NCBI GenBank assembly: GCA_016188575.1
Contig: JACPHN010000075.1
Location: 38,841-102,840 of the forward strand
Direction of reading: 5' to 3'
DNA length: 64,000 bases
Origin: Candidatus Schekmanbacteria bacterium
GTDB taxonomy: Bacteria; CSSED10-310; JACPHN01
Both the position numbers and the translations under genes were made by a program. Positions 55,522-63,814 of this stretch are shown piece by piece (position 1 is the stretch's first letter; every line of letters begins with the position of its first letter). Under the pieces are notes generated by a model. That model had not been told where the DNA came from and made no database searches. It saw only the letters and a list, made by a program, of their open reading frames with translations.

Positions 55522-55541
55522 TGTAAAGGACATTCGGCCGA
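55522..55541 (-). repeat. Outer end of a second TCGGCCGAATG element
   Basis: Reads TGTAAAGGACATTCGGCCGA, the mirror of the end at 55558-55577 with 2 mismatches. The two ends face each other across 16 bases, so this may be the right end of a second, abutting element, or a long hairpin. Confidence 0.55.
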
Positions 55542-55557
55542 GGTCGGAAAAATGGCG

Positions 55558-55756
55558 TCGGCCGAATGTGGTTTACACCTGAGCCGCCACGCAGGGGCGC
55601 GATTTATCGCGCCCGGTCATCGCGGCCGGTAATCGGGGCGGAACATTCTCGGCCCGATGATCCCCGGCCCGGCATTGGGGCGCGATGAATCGCGCCCCTC
55701 CGCGCCGAAGCTGCGGCGGGAAGAAGTGTAATGGACGAAACCGGACATTCGGCCGA
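55558..55756. mobile_element. Short non-autonomous element (MITE-like) with TCGGCCGAATGT ends
   Basis: About 199 bp bounded by TCGGCCGAATGT (55558-55569) and ACATTCGGCCGA (55745-55756), exact inverted repeats, each followed inward by a TTTACAC/GTGTAA block. Inside are two perfect palindromes, GGGCGCGATTTATCGCGCCC and GGGGCGCGATGAATCGCGCC, and no gene. A matching left end lies at 63760-63780. The WD40 gene fragment begins directly at the right end, showing that the element cut off its 5' part. This looks like a miniature inverted-repeat element mobilised by an unseen transposase. Confidence 0.7.
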
Positions 55757-56022
55757 TCCCGAACATCCGCACCTTCGAAGGGCATACGGACCGGGTCTGG
55801 TTAGTGGCCCTGAGCCCGGACGGCCGGCTGGCGCTCTCCGGCAGTTGGGACAAGACCGTCAAGCTGTGGGAGGTCGACACCGGCCGGAACATCCGCACCT
55901 TCGAAAGGCATACGGCCGGGGTCCAGCCAGTGGCCCTGAGCTCGGACCCAACGCTGGCTTTATCCGGGGACGCAGCGGGCAAGCTCATCGTGTGGCGCCT
56001 GATCTGGGACCTGGAGCTCTGA
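55757..56022 (+). pseudogene. WD40-repeat C-terminal fragment (kinase-WD40 gene, copy 1)
   Basis: Open frame with no start, ending at 56022. It holds two WD40 blades: IRTFEGHTDRVWLVALSPDG with SWDKTVKLWEVDTG, and IRTFERHTAGVQPVALSSDP. It closes with AGKLIVWRLIWDLEL. The same ending recurs at 57416-57469, downstream of a kinase start at 57119, so this was the C-terminus of a kinase-WD40 protein. The 5' part was removed at the MITE boundary (55756). Confidence 0.8.
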
Positions 56023-56057
56023 GGTGCGCACAAGACCACGACCGCGGGAGACAAACC

Positions 56058-56219
56058 ATGGATGCGAGACCCGAGGCGATCGAGGCCCCGGAGACGAACA
56101 AGGCGCTCCCTGTGCTCGAGGCAACGACCTGGGTTGTTGGGCGGAGCTCGGCGTTCGGTGCCTTTCCGGCACCTCGAGCTCCGAGAGACGCCCCCGTGCT
56201 GCCGCGGTTCGTGCTATGA
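56058..56219 (+). CDS. Short ORF of 53 codons between WD40 gene and Rpn gene, copy 1
   Basis: ATG at 56058 with a GGGAG site 8 bases upstream; ends with TGA at 56217-56219, about 40 bases before the Rpn gene. The product reads MDARPEAIEAPETNKALPVL then TTWVVGRSSAFGAFPAPRAP, with no known domain. It is conserved in frame and length in copy 2 (57506-57667). Comparing the two by eye gives about 7 amino-acid-changing and 4 silent differences, so selection for the protein is not evident. It may be a leader. Confidence 0.3.
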   Translation: MDARPEAIEAPETNKALPVLEATTWVVGRSSAFGAFPAPRAPRDAPVLPRFVL

Positions 56220-56259
56220 GGGAAGATCCACCATCCTTCATCATTGAGAGGAGCCCACG

Positions 56260-57087
56260 ATGCTTCAAGTCGTCCCTCTGAGGTATGGCGTCGCCTTCAA
56301 GAAGGCATTCCGCGACGTCGAGGTCTTCCGCGCCTTCGTGGCCGATGTCCTCGGGATCGAGATCGAGATCAGCGAGGTCCGCGAGGAGTTCACCTACCCG
56401 GATCCGGTCGGCAAGGCCAGGACCGAGTATGACCTGTTCGCCGAGGACGAGCGCCACCGGATCATCGTCGAGGTGCAGCACGTCAAGGAGGCGGACTTCT
56501 ACGACCGGTTCCTCTACTACCACCTCGTGAGCCTCGTCGAACAGGTCAGCGGCTACCGGGAGTATCGGCTCGCGAGGACGGTCTACACGGTGGTCGTGCT
56601 CACGAGCGTGCCACGGGACGGGACCGCGCGCTTCGGCGTGGCCGCCAGCGACATGGACCTGACGGATGACGAGGGGAGGCGTCTGGGGATCTACGGGCAC
56701 CGGCTGGTGTTCCTCAACGCCCGCCGGGCGAGCGAACGGATGGCGCCCGGGGTGCGCAAGTGGCTGGAGCTGATCGAGGACACGCTCGACGGCGCCGTGG
56801 AGGAGGAGCGATACGAGGACGAGATTCGCCGGAGGGTGATCGGGGCGATCCGGACGGAGCGGATCACGCCCGAGGAGCTAGCGCGGGTCAAGGACGAGGC
56901 CGCCTGGGAGGCCGCCAAGCAGGAGGCCCGCAAGGAAGGCATCGAGGAAGGCGTCGAGGAAGGGATCGAGAAAGGGATCGAGAAAGGTCGCAAGGAGATC
57001 GCGCGGCGGATGCTTGAAGAAGGCATGCCCGTAGAGCAGATCGCCTTGCTGACAGGTCTTTCCGCCGGTGAGATCGCCGGGACCTGA
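56260..57087 (+). CDS. Rpn-family PD-(D/E)XK nuclease/putative transposase, copy 1
   Basis: A 275-residue protein of the Rpn (recombination-promoting nuclease) / PD-(D/E)XK transposase group. E. coli Rpn proteins are DNA endonucleases and some act against phage. GAGGAG lies before the ATG. The N-terminus LQVVPLRYGVAFKKAFRDVE is the family start. The nuclease core has Asp in YDLFAEDE and the E-x-Q motif in RIIVEVQHVKE, then FYDRFLYYHLVSLVEQVSGY. A helical C-terminus follows: LELIEDTLDGAVEEERYEDE and ARVKDEAAWEAAKQEARKEG. It ends with a short tandem repeat GIEEGVEEGIEKGIEKG and EQIALLTGLSAGEI. An in-frame ATG at 56740 could start a shorter C-terminal product. Confidence 0.9.
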   Translation: MLQVVPLRYGVAFKKAFRDVEVFRAFVADVLGIEIEISEVREEFTYPDPVGKARTEYDLFAEDERHRIIVEVQHVKEADFYDRFLYYHLVSLVEQVSGYREYRLARTVYTVVVLTSVPRDGTARFGVAASDMDLTDDEGRRLGIYGHRLVFLNARRASERMAPGVRKWLELIEDTLDGAVEEERYEDEIRRRVIGAIRTERITPEELARVKDEAAWEAAKQEARKEGIEEGVEEGIEKGIEKGRKEIARRMLEEGMPVEQIALLTGLSAGEIAGT

Positions 57088-57118
57088 GAGTCCACCCAGT
57101 GAAGATGGAGGTAGGGCC

Positions 57119-57469
57119 ATGGGTTTCCTGAGCAGGTTGTTTGCCCGATCGAAACCAGAGCAGGTCGCGGCGGATGCCGGCGCAGGGCGGCAAGGACCCC
57201 CGGAGGATACGACGAACGACGACGCCGGGGCGCCGGCACCCGCGACCGGCGCCACGGGGACCGTGCTCCGCCGCCCCAGCCGCGATGGCGCATTGCCGGG
57301 GGAGCGACCCGGCCCGGGACTGACGGCCCTCGAGATCGCCGAGCAGGCGGCGTGGGAGGTCAAGTCCCTGCGCCCGTGGGAGCCTGGCGAGGTGATCCTC
57401 GCTCGCTCTGTCCGGGGACGCGGCGGGCAAGGTCATCGTGTGGCGCCTGATCTGGGACCTGGAGCTCTG
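57119..57469 (+). pseudogene. Kinase N-terminus fused to WD40 tail by deletion (kinase-WD40 gene, copy 2)
   Basis: ATG at 57119 after GGAGG; codes MGFLSRLFARSKPEQVAADA, a linker, then TALEIAEQAAWEVKSLRPWE and PGEVIL. In copy 3 (58640) this is followed by DTYEVEDVLSGGMGHVYIV, the kinase. Here, after PGEVIL (about 57402) the DNA jumps to the WD40-tail sequence GCGGCGGGCAAGG at 57419 and reads it out of frame. So a deletion removed nearly the whole kinase and WD40 domains. The shifted frame stays open and runs into the short ORF at 57506, giving a possible 182-codon chimaera ending at 57667. Confidence 0.8.
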
Positions 57470-57505
57470 AGGTGCGCACAAGACCACGACCGCGGGAGAC
57501 CAACC

Positions 57506-57667
57506 ATGGATGTGAGACCCGAGGCGATCGAGGGCCCCGAGACGGGCAAGGCACTCCCGGTGCTCGAGGCAACGACCTGGGTTGTTGGGCGGAGCTCGGC
57601 GTTCGGTGCCTTTCCGGGACCTCGAGCACCGAAAGACGCCCCCGCGCTGCCGCGGTTCGTGCTATGA
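57506..57667 (+). CDS. Short ORF of 53 codons, copy 2
   Basis: Counterpart of 56058-56219, same length: MDVRPEAIEGPETGKALPVL with changes A3V, A10G, N14G, A38G, R43K and V47A. CGGGAG precedes the ATG. In this copy it is in frame with the truncated kinase start at 57119, so it could also be translated as its tail. Coding status doubtful. Confidence 0.3.
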   Translation: MDVRPEAIEGPETGKALPVLEATTWVVGRSSAFGAFPGPRAPKDAPALPRFVL

Positions 57668-57704
57668 GGCAAGATCCACCATCCTTCATCGTCGAGAGGA
57701 GCCC

Positions 57705-58547
57705 ATGATGCTTCAAGTCGTCCCTCTGAGGTATGGCGTCGCCTTCAAGAAGGCCTTCCGCGATGTCGAGGTCTTCCGCGCCTTCGTGGCCGATGTCCTC
57801 GGGATCGAGATCGAAATCAGCGAGGTCCGCGAGGAGTTTACCTACCCGGAACCGGTCGGCAAGGCGAAGGCGGAGTATGACCTCTTTGCCGAGGACGAGA
57901 AGAACCGGATCATCGTCGAGCTCCAGCACGTCAAGGAGGCCGACTTCTACGACCGGTTCCTCTACTACCACCTCGTGAGCCTCGTCGAACAGGTCAGCGG
58001 CTACCGGGAGTATCGTCTCGCGAGGACGGTCTACACGGTGGTGGTGCTGACGAGCGTGCCGCGAGACCGCAGTGCAGACTTTGCAGTAGCGGTCAGCGAC
58101 ATGGACGTGACGGATCAACATGGCAAGCGTCTGGGCGTCTACAGGCATCGGTTGGTCTTCCTCAACGCCCGCCGGGCGAGCGAACAGATGCCGGCGGGGG
58201 TGCACAAGTGGCTGGAGCTGATCGAGGACACGCTCGACGGCGCCGTGGAGGAGGAGCGATACGAGGACGAGGTGCGCCGGAGGGTGATCGGGGCGATCCG
58301 GACGGAGCGGATCACGCCGGAAGAGCTGGCGCGGGTCAAGGACGAGGCGGCCTGGGAGGCCGCCAAGCAGGAGGCCCGGAAGGAAGGCCTGGAGGAAGGC
58401 ATCGAGAAGGGCATCGAGAAAGGGATCGAGAAAGGCAGCCGGAGAAGGAGTCAAGAGATTGCGCGACGCATGCTCGAGCAAGGCATGTCTGTCGAGCAGG
58501 TCGCCTTGCTCACAGGGCTGCCTCCGGATGACGTCGCCGGGATCTGA
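57705..58547 (+). CDS. Rpn-family PD-(D/E)XK nuclease/putative transposase, copy 2
   Basis: A 280-residue paralogue of the protein at 56260, about 90% identical by eye. ATG ATG at 57705-57710 follow GAGAGGAG. The catalytic blocks are kept (YDLFAEDE; RIIVELQHVKE), although the segment around TSVPRDRSADFAVAVSDMDV differs strongly from copy 1. The C-terminal repeat is changed to GLEEGIEKGIEKGIEKG then SRRRSQEIARRMLEQG, so unit number and junction vary between copies. An in-frame ATG at 58188 matches the internal ATG of copy 1. Both genes look intact; two active paralogues side by side are unusual. Confidence 0.9.
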   Translation: MMLQVVPLRYGVAFKKAFRDVEVFRAFVADVLGIEIEISEVREEFTYPEPVGKAKAEYDLFAEDEKNRIIVELQHVKEADFYDRFLYYHLVSLVEQVSGYREYRLARTVYTVVVLTSVPRDRSADFAVAVSDMDVTDQHGKRLGVYRHRLVFLNARRASEQMPAGVHKWLELIEDTLDGAVEEERYEDEVRRRVIGAIRTERITPEELARVKDEAAWEAAKQEARKEGLEEGIEKGIEKGIEKGSRRRSQEIARRMLEQGMSVEQVALLTGLPPDDVAGI

Positions 58548-58639
58548 GCAGCGAAGACGGGCCGGGAGCACCTGCCGCGGTTGCGCCTTCACGGCTCGGC
58601 GGAGCGAGAGGTAGTCATCATGAGCTTGCAGGTGTGGCC

Positions 58640-59165
58640 ATGGGATTCCTGAGCAGGTTGTTCGGCCGATCGAAACCGGAGCGAGCCGCCGTAGATACCG
58701 GCGAAGGTAACCGCGAAATCGATGGGGACGCGACGAAGGATGGCAGTAGTCCACCGGAGCCACCGGCGACCGGCGCCAGGGGGACGCTGCTTCGCGGCTC
58801 GGGTGGTGACGGAGCGTCGCCGCAAGAGAAGCCCCCTGCTAGGCTGACGGCACTGAAGATAGCCGAGCAGGGGGCGTGGGAGGTCAAATCGCTGCGCCCC
58901 TGGCAGCCCGGCGAGGTCATCCTTGACACCTACGAGGTCGAGGACGTCCTCTCGGGCGGCATGGGCCACGTCTACATCGTGACCCACAGAGACTGGCGCA
59001 TGAAGGTCGCCATCAAGGCACCGAACCAGCTCATGCTCTCCGAGCGCGACCTACTCGCCCGCGTGCTCAGGGAGGCGGATTCCTGGACGAAGCTCGGGCT
59101 TCATCCCCACATCGCCTACTGCTACCACGTCCGCCGAATCGAAGGGGTGCCGCACATCTACACGC
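58640..59165 (+). pseudogene. Kinase N-terminal part, truncated (kinase-WD40 gene, copy 3)
   Basis: ATG at 58640 (or GTG at 58634). It codes MGFLSRLFGRSKPERAAVDT, a linker, then TALKIAEQGAWEVKSLRPWQ, PGEVILDTYEVEDVLSGGMG, VYIVTHRDWRMKVAIKAPNQ and LHPHIAYCYHVRRIEGVPHI. This is the N-lobe of a Hanks-type kinase (glycine loop SGGMGHVY, Lys in VAIK). The similarity ends near HIYTHIS (about 59168), where an inverted WD40 segment begins. So the C-lobe is gone. The N-terminal MGFLSRLFGRSK recurs in copies 2 and 3 and may be a short amphipathic membrane-targeting helix (inference). Confidence 0.8.
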
Positions 59166-59174
59166 ACATCTCGC

Positions 59175-59654
59175 CGCGCCGCCGCAGCACGCGATCAACA
59201 GCGCGCTCGAGGCCTGGAACGTGTTCGACGAGACGTCCTGCCGGTCGAGATCCCACAGCTTGAGGGTCTTGTCCCAGCTCCCCGCGGAGATCGCCCGCCG
59301 GCCGTGCGGGCTCAAGGCGACGGAGACAACGGCAGCCGTATGCCCTTCCATCCTGCCGAGGCACTGGCCGGTGCCGAGATCCCAAAACCTGATGGTCTTG
59401 TCGTTGCTGCCCGAAAGCGCGCGTCGACCGTCAGCGCTCAGAGCAACGGAATAGGCTGGCTCCGAATGGCCCTCCAACATTCGCAGGGATCGACCCGTCT
59501 CCAGATCCCACAGCTCGAGCGTGCTGTCCGCGCTCGCCGACAGTACCCGTTGTCCGTTGCCATTCAGCGCGACCGAAACAATCGTTTCCGAGGCTCCAGT
59601 TGTCTTACGATTGTGCGCCCGATCGCCTCTTTCCACCGCCCAGTCAGCGATCAA
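59175..59654 (-). pseudogene. Inverted WD40-repeat fragment
   Basis: Minus-strand frame with about three WD40 blades: ETIVSVALNGNGQRVLSASA with LELWDLETGRSLRMLEGHSE, then YSVALSADGRRALSGSNDKT with IRFWDLGTGQCLGRMEGHTA, and SVALSPHGRRAISAGSWDKT with LKLWDLDRQ. It abuts the truncated kinase head-on at about 59170, so a DNA inversion joined them. An ATG at 59654 exists but no ribosome site. It may be a piece of the same kinase-WD40 family, turned around. Confidence 0.75.
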
Positions 59655-61697: not shown

Positions 61698-62267
61698 TCA
61701 CCCGGCTTGTTGCCCCCCGATACGGTCCCGCACGGTCATCAGGGCGAAGCCAAGCAGGTTGGTCCCCTGCCATTCCCCCGGATCGCTCGCTCGCGGATCG
61801 TCTCGGTGCAGCCCGATCCCCCAAACCGCATCTTCCGGACTGGCCTCCACCAAGACCTTGGGCGAGGTGCTCAGCAGGTATCGGTGCAGGCGCGGGTTTT
61901 GGGTGAATTTCGCGATATTGCCTCGAATAACGAGCTCCACGCGCCGCGCGGTCCATCGCTCCTGAGCGAATCCCTGGACTTTCCGGCCGAGCCCCTTTGC
62001 ATCCTGTGCCGTCAGCGCCTCGAGAATGCGCGCTTCGGTCCCGTGATCCCCGAACAGGCGAGCCTTCTCGGCCATCATGAAGTGTTCGGCAGTCCGGTAC
62101 CGCACGCCGCCGATCGCAAAGTCGGCCGCATACCACTGGCTGAGGCAGCTCGGACCGATGCGACCATCTGGTTGCGGCCGGTGTCCCCAGAAAAAGAGGA
62201 CCTCGTAGGCCTCGCCCCGGCCGCGAGCCGCGAGCAGTGCCTCGCGAGAATCCAGCGCTAGCATCAT
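61698..62267 (-). CDS. NADAR (YbiA-like) N-glycosidase-fold protein
   Basis: A 189-residue protein of the NADAR family. E. coli YbiA hydrolyses damaged riboflavin intermediates; other NADAR proteins reverse or control ADP-ribosyl signals. Hallmarks: VLFFWGHRP, CLSQWYAADFAIGGVRYRTA, EHFMMAEKARLFGD (catalytic E-H-F-M-x-x-K block), WTARRVELVIRGNIAKFTQN and WGIGLHRDDPRASDPGEWQG followed by NLLGFALM. All are present, so it should be active. GAAGGTGAG precedes two ATG codons. It lies between IS66 and ISKra4 relics, a setting where NADAR may belong to a defence or toxin-antitoxin system (inference). Confidence 0.92.
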   Translation of the reverse strand: MMLALDSREALLAARGRGEAYEVLFFWGHRPQPDGRIGPSCLSQWYAADFAIGGVRYRTAEHFMMAEKARLFGDHGTEARILEALTAQDAKGLGRKVQGFAQERWTARRVELVIRGNIAKFTQNPRLHRYLLSTSPKVLVEASPEDAVWGIGLHRDDPRASDPGEWQGTNLLGFALMTVRDRIGGQQAG

Positions 62268-62359: not shown

Positions 62360-63440
62360 GGTGCAAGTCCGGAATGTCGGACGTAGCCGGTTCGGGCCAA
62401 TCGGGCGCCGAGGCCTGGACAATCGTGAAAGGACTGTCCAGGGTGTCAACAGTATGAACGTGAAATCGTCGTCGACACCCTTTCGTGAGGACAGTCCATG
62501 ACATCGTTGCCGAATTGCTGCCTCGATTCTATCGCTACTGCCCATTTCGCGCTCGATTCGAGCAAAGCTGTTGGAGCATTATCGGCCTTTCCCGCGGAGA
62601 AAACGAATCGCTCGCCAGAGGAGATCGCCGCGGATCTCAGCGGCATCGAGCTCGAGCTGAAAAACCTCCTGAATCGGCTGGGTACGGAGATTGCCGCCGC
62701 GCTGCTCGCCAGGCTCGACCTCCGGGCGAACGGCGTCATCGTCGGCGAGCAGGCGTACCGTCGTCGGCGCGAAGATGGCGCGACCGAAATCATGTCGACG
62801 TTCGGCCCGACGGCGATCACCTACGCGCTTTACGAAGAACGTGGTGGCCATGGTGGAAAGACGATAGCGCCGCTGTTGATGCGAATCGGCTTGGTCAACG
62901 ACTTCTGGACGCCGCGCGCGGCGGAAGTCGGGGCGCTATTCGTCCAGGCTACGACTCCCGCCGAATCGCACCGACTACTGGCGGCGGCTTCCGGAATGAC
63001 CGCCTCGCCGAGCAGCCTCGACCGACTGCCAAAGAGCATCGGTGAGGTCGTGGAGAAGGATCGCGAAAACCTCGAGGCCAGCATCAGGGCAGCGGAAACC
63101 TTGCCCGCCCCGTCGTGTGTCGCCACCATTGCAGTCTCCTTGGATGGCGTCATGGTGCCGTTAAAGGACGCGAAGCCGCAGTCTGCTTCAGGTCGTGGGA
63201 GCGAGCACGCTCAGGGGTACAGGGAGGCCGGCTGCGGGACGATTTCCCTGTACGACAGGAAAGGCGACCGTCTGCACACCATCCGCTTGGCCCGCATGCC
63301 CGAGGCTCGCAAGGTGACGTTGCATGCCCAGCTCCAAGCCGAGCTCGCGGCAATCCGGCAGCGCCGAAGAAAACTGGCGAATTCTGCGCGAAATCTCCGC
63401 CAAGTTGGGAATCGAGCTCGTCGAGGAAATCATCGATGGC
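62360..63440 (+). mobile_element. ISKra4-like element, the longest copy
   Basis: Starts at GGTGCAAGTCCGGAATGT, matching the left ends at 36326 and 40716. It has the longest transposase reading frame of the three copies, but its 3' part is lost. Similarity to the family ends near EELVEEIID-type sequence at about 63440, where the next element (IS1595-like) follows. Confidence 0.75.
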
Positions 63441-63478
63441 TCATTATGGAATCCGGGGAGCTGGCCCGCGTCGAGTAG
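62498..63478 (+). pseudogene. ISKra4-family transposase, truncated and frameshifted
   Basis: A 326-codon frame of an ISKra4-family transposase. It begins MTSLPNCCLDSIATAHFALD, then EEIAADLSGIELELKNLLNR, LARLDLRANGVIVGEQAYRR, SFGPTAITYAL-like FGPTAITYALYEERGG, TTPAESHRLLAAASGMTASP and the catalytic-type block ATIAVSLDGVMVPLKDA. After VTLHAQLQAELAAI (about 63357) the family continues in another frame as SAEENWRILREISAKLGIEL, so a frameshift is present there. The C-terminal half of the protein is absent. The fragments at 36326 and 40716 derive from the same transposase gene. Confidence 0.8.
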
Positions 63479-63551
63479 GCCGATGGCTCCCGGTGCTCTG
63501 GAGAGAGGAGGCGGCGTTGCGCGGCGCGGTCCCCAGAGCGATACTTGCGGC

Positions 63552-63759
63552 ATGATAAACATCCAGACTCTCATTGACGACGCGAGGTGTTTCGAGACGG
63601 TGCGGCAGATGCGCTGGCCAGAGGGAGCCCGCTGCCCGGACTGCGGCTCGGAACAAGTGACCAGACAAGGGCGAGACGAGACTCAGCGGGAGCGGCAGAG
63701 CTACCTGTGCAAGGCCTGTGAGCGGCGCTTCGACGACCTGACGGGGACGATTTTCGGCG
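63552..63759 (+). pseudogene. IS1595-family transposase N-terminus, cut by an inserted element
   Basis: ATG at 63552. It codes MINIQTLIDDARCFETVRQM, then RWPEGARCPDCGSEQVTRQG with a C-x-x-C zinc ribbon, and SYLCKACERRFDDLTGTIF with a second C-x-x-C. This is the zinc-ribbon N-terminus of IS1595-type transposases. At about 63755-63760 it stops abruptly at the TCGGCCGAATGT element end, so the DDE catalytic domain is gone. Confidence 0.8.
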
Positions 63760-63780
63760 TCGGCCGAATGTGGTTTACAC
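63760..63780 (+). repeat. Left end of the TCGGCCGAATGT element, second locus
   Basis: TCGGCCGAATGTGGTTTACA plus C, identical to 55558-55578, and preceded in both places by GGCG. It interrupts the IS1595 transposase. The rest of this element is not seen, because the group II intron begins about 35 bases further on. Confidence 0.7.
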
Positions 63781-63814
63781 TTGCCGGAAGTTGAAAGAGG
63801 TGCGACACCTGATA

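Follow-up and report, generated by a model that had tools for sequence, protein, structure and literature searches.

The closest described relatives of the locus considered here are the Rpn proteins of the RpnL/RpnS type (COG5464/TIGR01784; Zhong et al. 2023, PMC10327210; Kingston et al. 2017, PMC5350276). The full-length Rpn nuclease is toxic, a C-terminal small protein inhibits it, and protection is given against T-even phages (PMC10327210). A tail with four-residue repeats of varying number is a hallmark of Rpn, and rpn arrays arise through tandem duplication of genomic regions (PMC10327210). The locus lies at positions 55757-59654 of a window, that is the whole stretch of 64,000 nucleotides that was analysed, which forms the end of a 102,840-base contig (JACPHN010000075.1) in the 9.2 Mb draft genome of a Candidatus Schekmanbacteria bacterium. 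It holds two intact rpn genes among the remains of genes for a protein kinase joined to WD40 repeats (kinase-WD40 genes). With a probability of about 0.8 it is an Rpn array of the RpnL/RpnS kind, formed by tandem duplication of a region including the kinase gene, in which the Rpn genes survived and the kinase, a passenger, decayed.

The locus agrees with the described Rpn systems in its family scores, in the PD-(D/E)XK core D...E-x-Q...R, in a tail of four-residue repeats with a predicted fold like that of RpnA-S, in the many copies per genome and in an array formed by regional tandem duplication. It differs in the glycine found at the position of RpnA Asp11, in the lack of a convincing internal start for an RpnS, in the kinase-WD40 relics on either side and in being characterized from sequence alone. 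The relics resemble Hanks-type kinase-TPR-WD40 genes, with 50-62% identity in the N-terminal region and kinase N-lobe and a WD40 propeller that ends in the same way at its C-terminus. Homologues that are intact, in other genomes, encode kinase-TPR-WD40 proteins about 940-1500 residues long; only fragments are found here, and no PP2C or FHA gene was recognised among the scanned flanking open reading frames (ORFs) at the locus. With the kinase-based defence genes PD-T4-6 and MAD6 there is generic kinase-domain similarity only, covering no more than about 80-100 N-lobe residues and with no other system parts; the MAD6 match is far under its curated cut-off.

The features of the locus are as follows.

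55553-55756, no strand assigned: copy of a miniature inverted-repeat transposable element (MITE) with an internal inverted repeat; about 40 copies in the genome, full or partial, most 80-96% identical
55757-56022, plus strand: relic A, the last 88 or so codons of a kinase-WD40 gene, with two WD40 repeats, ending ...WRLIWDLEL-stop (Pfam WD40, E 9e-12)
56058-56219, plus strand: 53-codon ORF copy 1, a doubtful gene and probably spacer (no frame-specific constraint)
56260-57087, plus strand: intact gene for an Rpn-family PD-(D/E)XK nuclease of 275 aa, copy 1 (TIGR01784, 64.4 bits; motif D58...E71-V-Q73...R83)
56944-57081, plus strand: RpnS-like tail of copy 1, IEKG tetrapeptide repeats followed by a three-helix bundle (best structural match RpnA-S, 7TH0)
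57119-57397, plus strand: relic B, 5' part, a kinase-WD40 start of 93 codons (alignment to copies and homologues)
57400-57470, plus strand: relic B, 3' part, the terminal 22 or so WD40-gene codons, in a different frame from the 5' part (alignment)
57506-57667, plus strand: 53-codon ORF copy 2, a doubtful gene (no frame-specific constraint)
57708-58547, plus strand: intact gene for an Rpn-family nuclease of 279 aa, copy 2, possibly starting at 57705 (TIGR01784, 59.3 bits)
58640-59170, plus strand: relic C, a kinase-WD40 start of 177 codons with the kinase N-lobe only (partial Pkinase match, 9-66 of 263; 51-62% identity with intact homologues)
59177-59651, minus strand: three inverted WD40 repeats fused to relic C (Pfam WD40, E 6.5e-29; 78% DNA match to relic A)

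The base-by-base alignment gives two units, one at 55757-57087 (end of the WD40 gene, spacer and rpn) and the other at 57400-58547. A repeat search of the window returned a direct repeat of 300 nt with 93% identity (55952-56251 and 57400-57699), far above chance. An earlier note on this DNA had described a unit of WD40 tail, spacer and Rpn gene occurring twice in tandem; the direct repeats and the alignment bear this out, with copies that differ from each other. From the final WD40 codons into the first part of rpn the units are about 93-96% identical, and divergence rises distally, the 3' ends of rpn and the 5' ends of the kinase genes being about 75-81% identical. An assembly artefact as the source of the duplication is ruled out by the 7-25% difference between the copies. 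The kinase starts lie downstream on the same strand, with gaps of 31 and 92 bp after the Rpn stop.

Membership of the Rpn-type PD-(D/E)XK family, also proposed beforehand, holds for both copies. They score above the curated cut-off of TIGR01784 (52.1 bits) and, with 31.3 for copy 1 and 38.9 for copy 2, above the gathering score of PF12784 (PDDEXK_2; 27.4). The two proteins are 87% identical, and the nonsynonymous (dN) and synonymous (dS) divergences of the genes are 0.07 and 0.31; the low dN/dS of 0.22 (NG86) indicates that purifying selection acted. The catalytic residues D63, E82, Q84 and R94 of RpnA (PMC5350276) are matched in both copies by D58, E71, Q73 and R83, and both the E-x-Q spacing and the Q-to-R spacing equal those of RpnA.

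The predicted structure of the copy 1 tail matches E. coli RpnA-S (7TH0) over 46/46 residues at 2.1 A with 35% identity (Z 7.4; like any Z below 8, weak if taken alone), and a phmmer match falls at the same place (E 0.19). For the N-domain the predicted structure resembles PD-(D/E)XK nucleases such as McrC and Bax1 (Z about 6). The four-residue repeats are IEKG here and REEG in the relatives, and their number varies among six homologues in three genomes, all of which have this tail. A single four-residue insertion in the antitoxin-type helix separates the tail of copy 2 from that of copy 1. Altering the repeat number by one in E. coli RpnC abolishes recognition between RpnL and RpnS (PMC10327210), and by analogy the insertion could leave the two copies non-cross-reacting.

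The three kinase-WD40 copies are all dead, and no intact kinase-WD40 gene is visible in the window or in the rest of the assembly. Relic A aligns solely with the C-terminal 72 residues (873-944) of an intact homologue of 944 aa (L013). It is abutted exactly, on its upstream side, by the end of the MITE at 55756. The MITE, suspected previously, is real: a query covering 55525-55760 found its bases 29-232 again at about 40 places in the genome. A MITE end sequence at 63756-63783 also closes a truncated IS1595-type transposase ORF (63324-63794). Relic B follows the L013 homologue to residue 97 and then resumes, in another frame, at the very C-terminus, an internal deletion of roughly 2.5 kb as gauged on that homologue. 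Relic C tracks it to residue 177 and then passes into WD40 repeats of the opposite strand, the junction being at about 59170 as assembled. The MGFLSRLF starts are confirmed at 57119 and 58640; they are the sole two in the genome and have 61% amino acid identity over 110 aa. The earlier account of an ancestral kinase-WD40/Rpn pair that was multiplied, with kinases broken by deletion and inversion and both Rpn genes open, agrees with these alignments.

The rearrangements could also have been caused by Rpn itself. As a DNA-mobilising nuclease it would have driven the local duplications, deletions and inversion by its own cutting, and the locus would be a recombination hot spot and not a defence locus. 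Overexpression of RpnA raises RecA-independent recombination (PMC5350276), RpnL has been named in speculation as a driver of rpn duplications (PMC10327210), and deletion, inversion and tandem copies are all found at the locus, with another Rpn pair in the genome. However, MITEs abound in the genome, which also has transposase genes able to do likewise, the Rpn unit is not flanked by terminal repeats, and one locus cannot reveal causation. This explanation is considered unlikely.

The earlier note further proposed a sensing or controlling role over the nuclease for the kinase-WD40 protein, the two making a possible undescribed defence or mobile system. Homologues of the kinase-WD40 gene were drawn from named genomes and from 386 genomes sampled across the domain, and flanks of 0 to 10 kb per side, some cut off where short contigs end, were scanned with Rpn profiles built here; the host phylum was represented by seven other genomes, none from the host family. 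Of the 22 genes that combine a kinase match with WD40 repeats, which come from about 16 other genomes, none lies near an Rpn gene. Eight of ten genomes with kinase-WD40 genes have no TIGR01784 match, and the remaining two have theirs on different contigs. The six closest Rpn loci have no kinase-WD40 or other WD40 gene in their scanned flanks. These relatives (L072-L077, in genomes G134, G277 and G254) are 43-49% identical to the Rpn copies, and their neighbours are ordinary genes, for example those of aromatic amino acid biosynthesis, glycosyltransferases and tRNA synthetases, with one generic kinase about 8 kb off. An Rpn search across the phylum of G134 gave no further loci. Viral contigs searched for Rpn and kinase and plasmids searched for Rpn gave none, the plasmid kinase matches being generic Streptomyces/Nostoc kinases, and no paper on Rpn together with WD40 came up in a literature search. 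Among the sequences searched, the pairing is thus confined to this genome, the outcome that had been named in advance as speaking against the proposal; there is neither recurrent adjacency nor an intact kinase-WD40 gene in the host, and neither the control of the nuclease nor the new system is supported.

Kinase-TPR-WD40 genes keep other company. In 11 loci from several phyla they adjoin a gene for a PP2C phosphatase, one for an FHA-domain kinase, or both (L013, L015, L016, L019, L060, L061, L063, L131, L132, L136 and L137), and on gene order this combination is a conserved signalling module.

In a narrower form of the proposal, the kinase-WD40 protein and Rpn made up a lineage-specific two-gene system in which the kinase phosphorylated, or sensed the trigger for, Rpn; the operon was duplicated and the kinase later lost in this strain. 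The operon-like order, with short gaps on the same strand, and the multiplication of the pair together are in its favour, and a comparison set without close relatives of the host would leave an ancestral intact state beyond view. Against it are the absence of Rpn genes near the kinase-WD40 genes elsewhere and from most such genomes, the nearest Rpn genes without kinase-WD40, the other conserved partners of the kinase-WD40 genes and the persistence of the Rpn genes though the genome has no intact kinase-WD40. The host genome is moreover strongly kinase-rich, with at least 188 protein-kinase domain matches, and has about ten further Rpn loci, numbers that make one chance neighbour pair unsurprising; the chance of such a pair would be about 40%, assuming about 8,000 genes. 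The two-gene system is accordingly rated very unlikely. That the pair was a phosphorylation-controlled defence operon of a poorly sampled lineage, tandemly amplified and with the nuclease half surviving, is if anything a little less probable again. Kinases beside the host's other Rpn loci (five of the loci retrieved) were considered as a signal of partnership and rejected, as kinase abundance explains them and there is no clear enrichment.

Under duplication and decay, the preferred reading, a region in which rpn came after a kinase-WD40 gene would have been duplicated in tandem, with gene conversion or more than one duplication step behind the uneven divergence. The kinase-WD40 copies, as passengers, would have become pseudogenes by deletion (B), by a rearrangement inverting the WD40 repeats (C) and by loss of everything upstream of the WD40 end, beside the MITE (A), and purifying selection would have kept both rpn genes. 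The full-length Rpn would be a toxic PD-(D/E)XK DNA endonuclease of poor sequence specificity, as in E. coli RpnL/RpnS. A C-terminal helical domain of its own type, probably translated separately as a small protein, would restrain it, and phage infection or stress would release the nuclease.

Several points weigh against this reading. The kinase starts have a dS of 0.79 against 0.31 for rpn, and divergence along the units is uneven; a single simple duplication is therefore insufficient, and the pattern calls for gene conversion or for several events in succession. Neither copy has an internal start with a well-spaced ribosome-binding site for a product of RpnS length, the only in-frame candidate starts lying either 25 and 20 codons (ATGs) or at least 83 codons (GTGs) from the end. 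Gly10 in both copies aligns with the essential Asp11 of RpnA, and catalysis may be altered. This position has Asp in five of six close relatives (L072-L076) and Gly in the distant relative L077; it is no criterion of the family models and bears on activity, not on profile-defined membership. The predicted Rpn structure is mediocre (mean predicted local distance difference test score, pLDDT, 64), and the Z values of both its N-domain and its tail are below 8; with Foldseek by itself, the complete model had no significant match. Among known defence genes, none was recognised beside the locus except that of a NADAR protein. That both Rpn copies are decaying and now without function, as the Gly at the Asp11 position might suggest, is the least probable explanation, since the frames are open over 275-279 codons, dN/dS is 0.22, D58, E71, Q73 and R83 are kept and L077 has the same Gly.

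Most likely the locus is no new defence system but a product of ordinary duplication followed by decay. It would be a clear case of an Rpn array derived from regional duplication, in which the passenger gene was lost, the nucleases were kept and the tails were split by a four-residue insertion. It is in keeping with the picture in the literature of Rpn as toxin-antitoxin or anti-phage nucleases that diversify fast, and it cautions that a functional partnership is not to be read off one duplicated locus.

The 53-codon ORF that had been counted as part of the unit is open in both copies, but its status as a gene is not upheld by any coding constraint. The copies have dN 0.063 and dS 0.097 (dN/dS about 0.65), with similar values in other frames, and the differences by codon position (1/6/4) follow no coding pattern. 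A Pfam scan of the frames overlapping copy 1 gave no match, copy 2 is the tail of a frame continuing from the kinase relic, and the spacer containing the ORF has no copy in the genome outside the locus. Lack of a coding signal together with lack of a copy elsewhere in the genome rules it out as a third component, and it is probably best taken as spacer.

Other Rpn genes of the host include a second adjacent pair, of a distinct subfamily, on contig C66 (L045:8528-10641); a close relative of one copy is found on contig C218 of the same genome (L046:3430-4389). Seven contigs (C9, C72, C18, C213, C126, C98 and C43) end inside Rpn genes, which suggests that near-identical copies broke the assembly. 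The NADAR-domain protein beside the locus (61701-62267, minus strand) scores above the cut-off of a riboflavin intermediates N-glycosidase model and has a weak match to an anti-phage NADAR model. At 62498-63475 lies a fragment like an ISKra4-family transposase, which scores under the curated cut-off.

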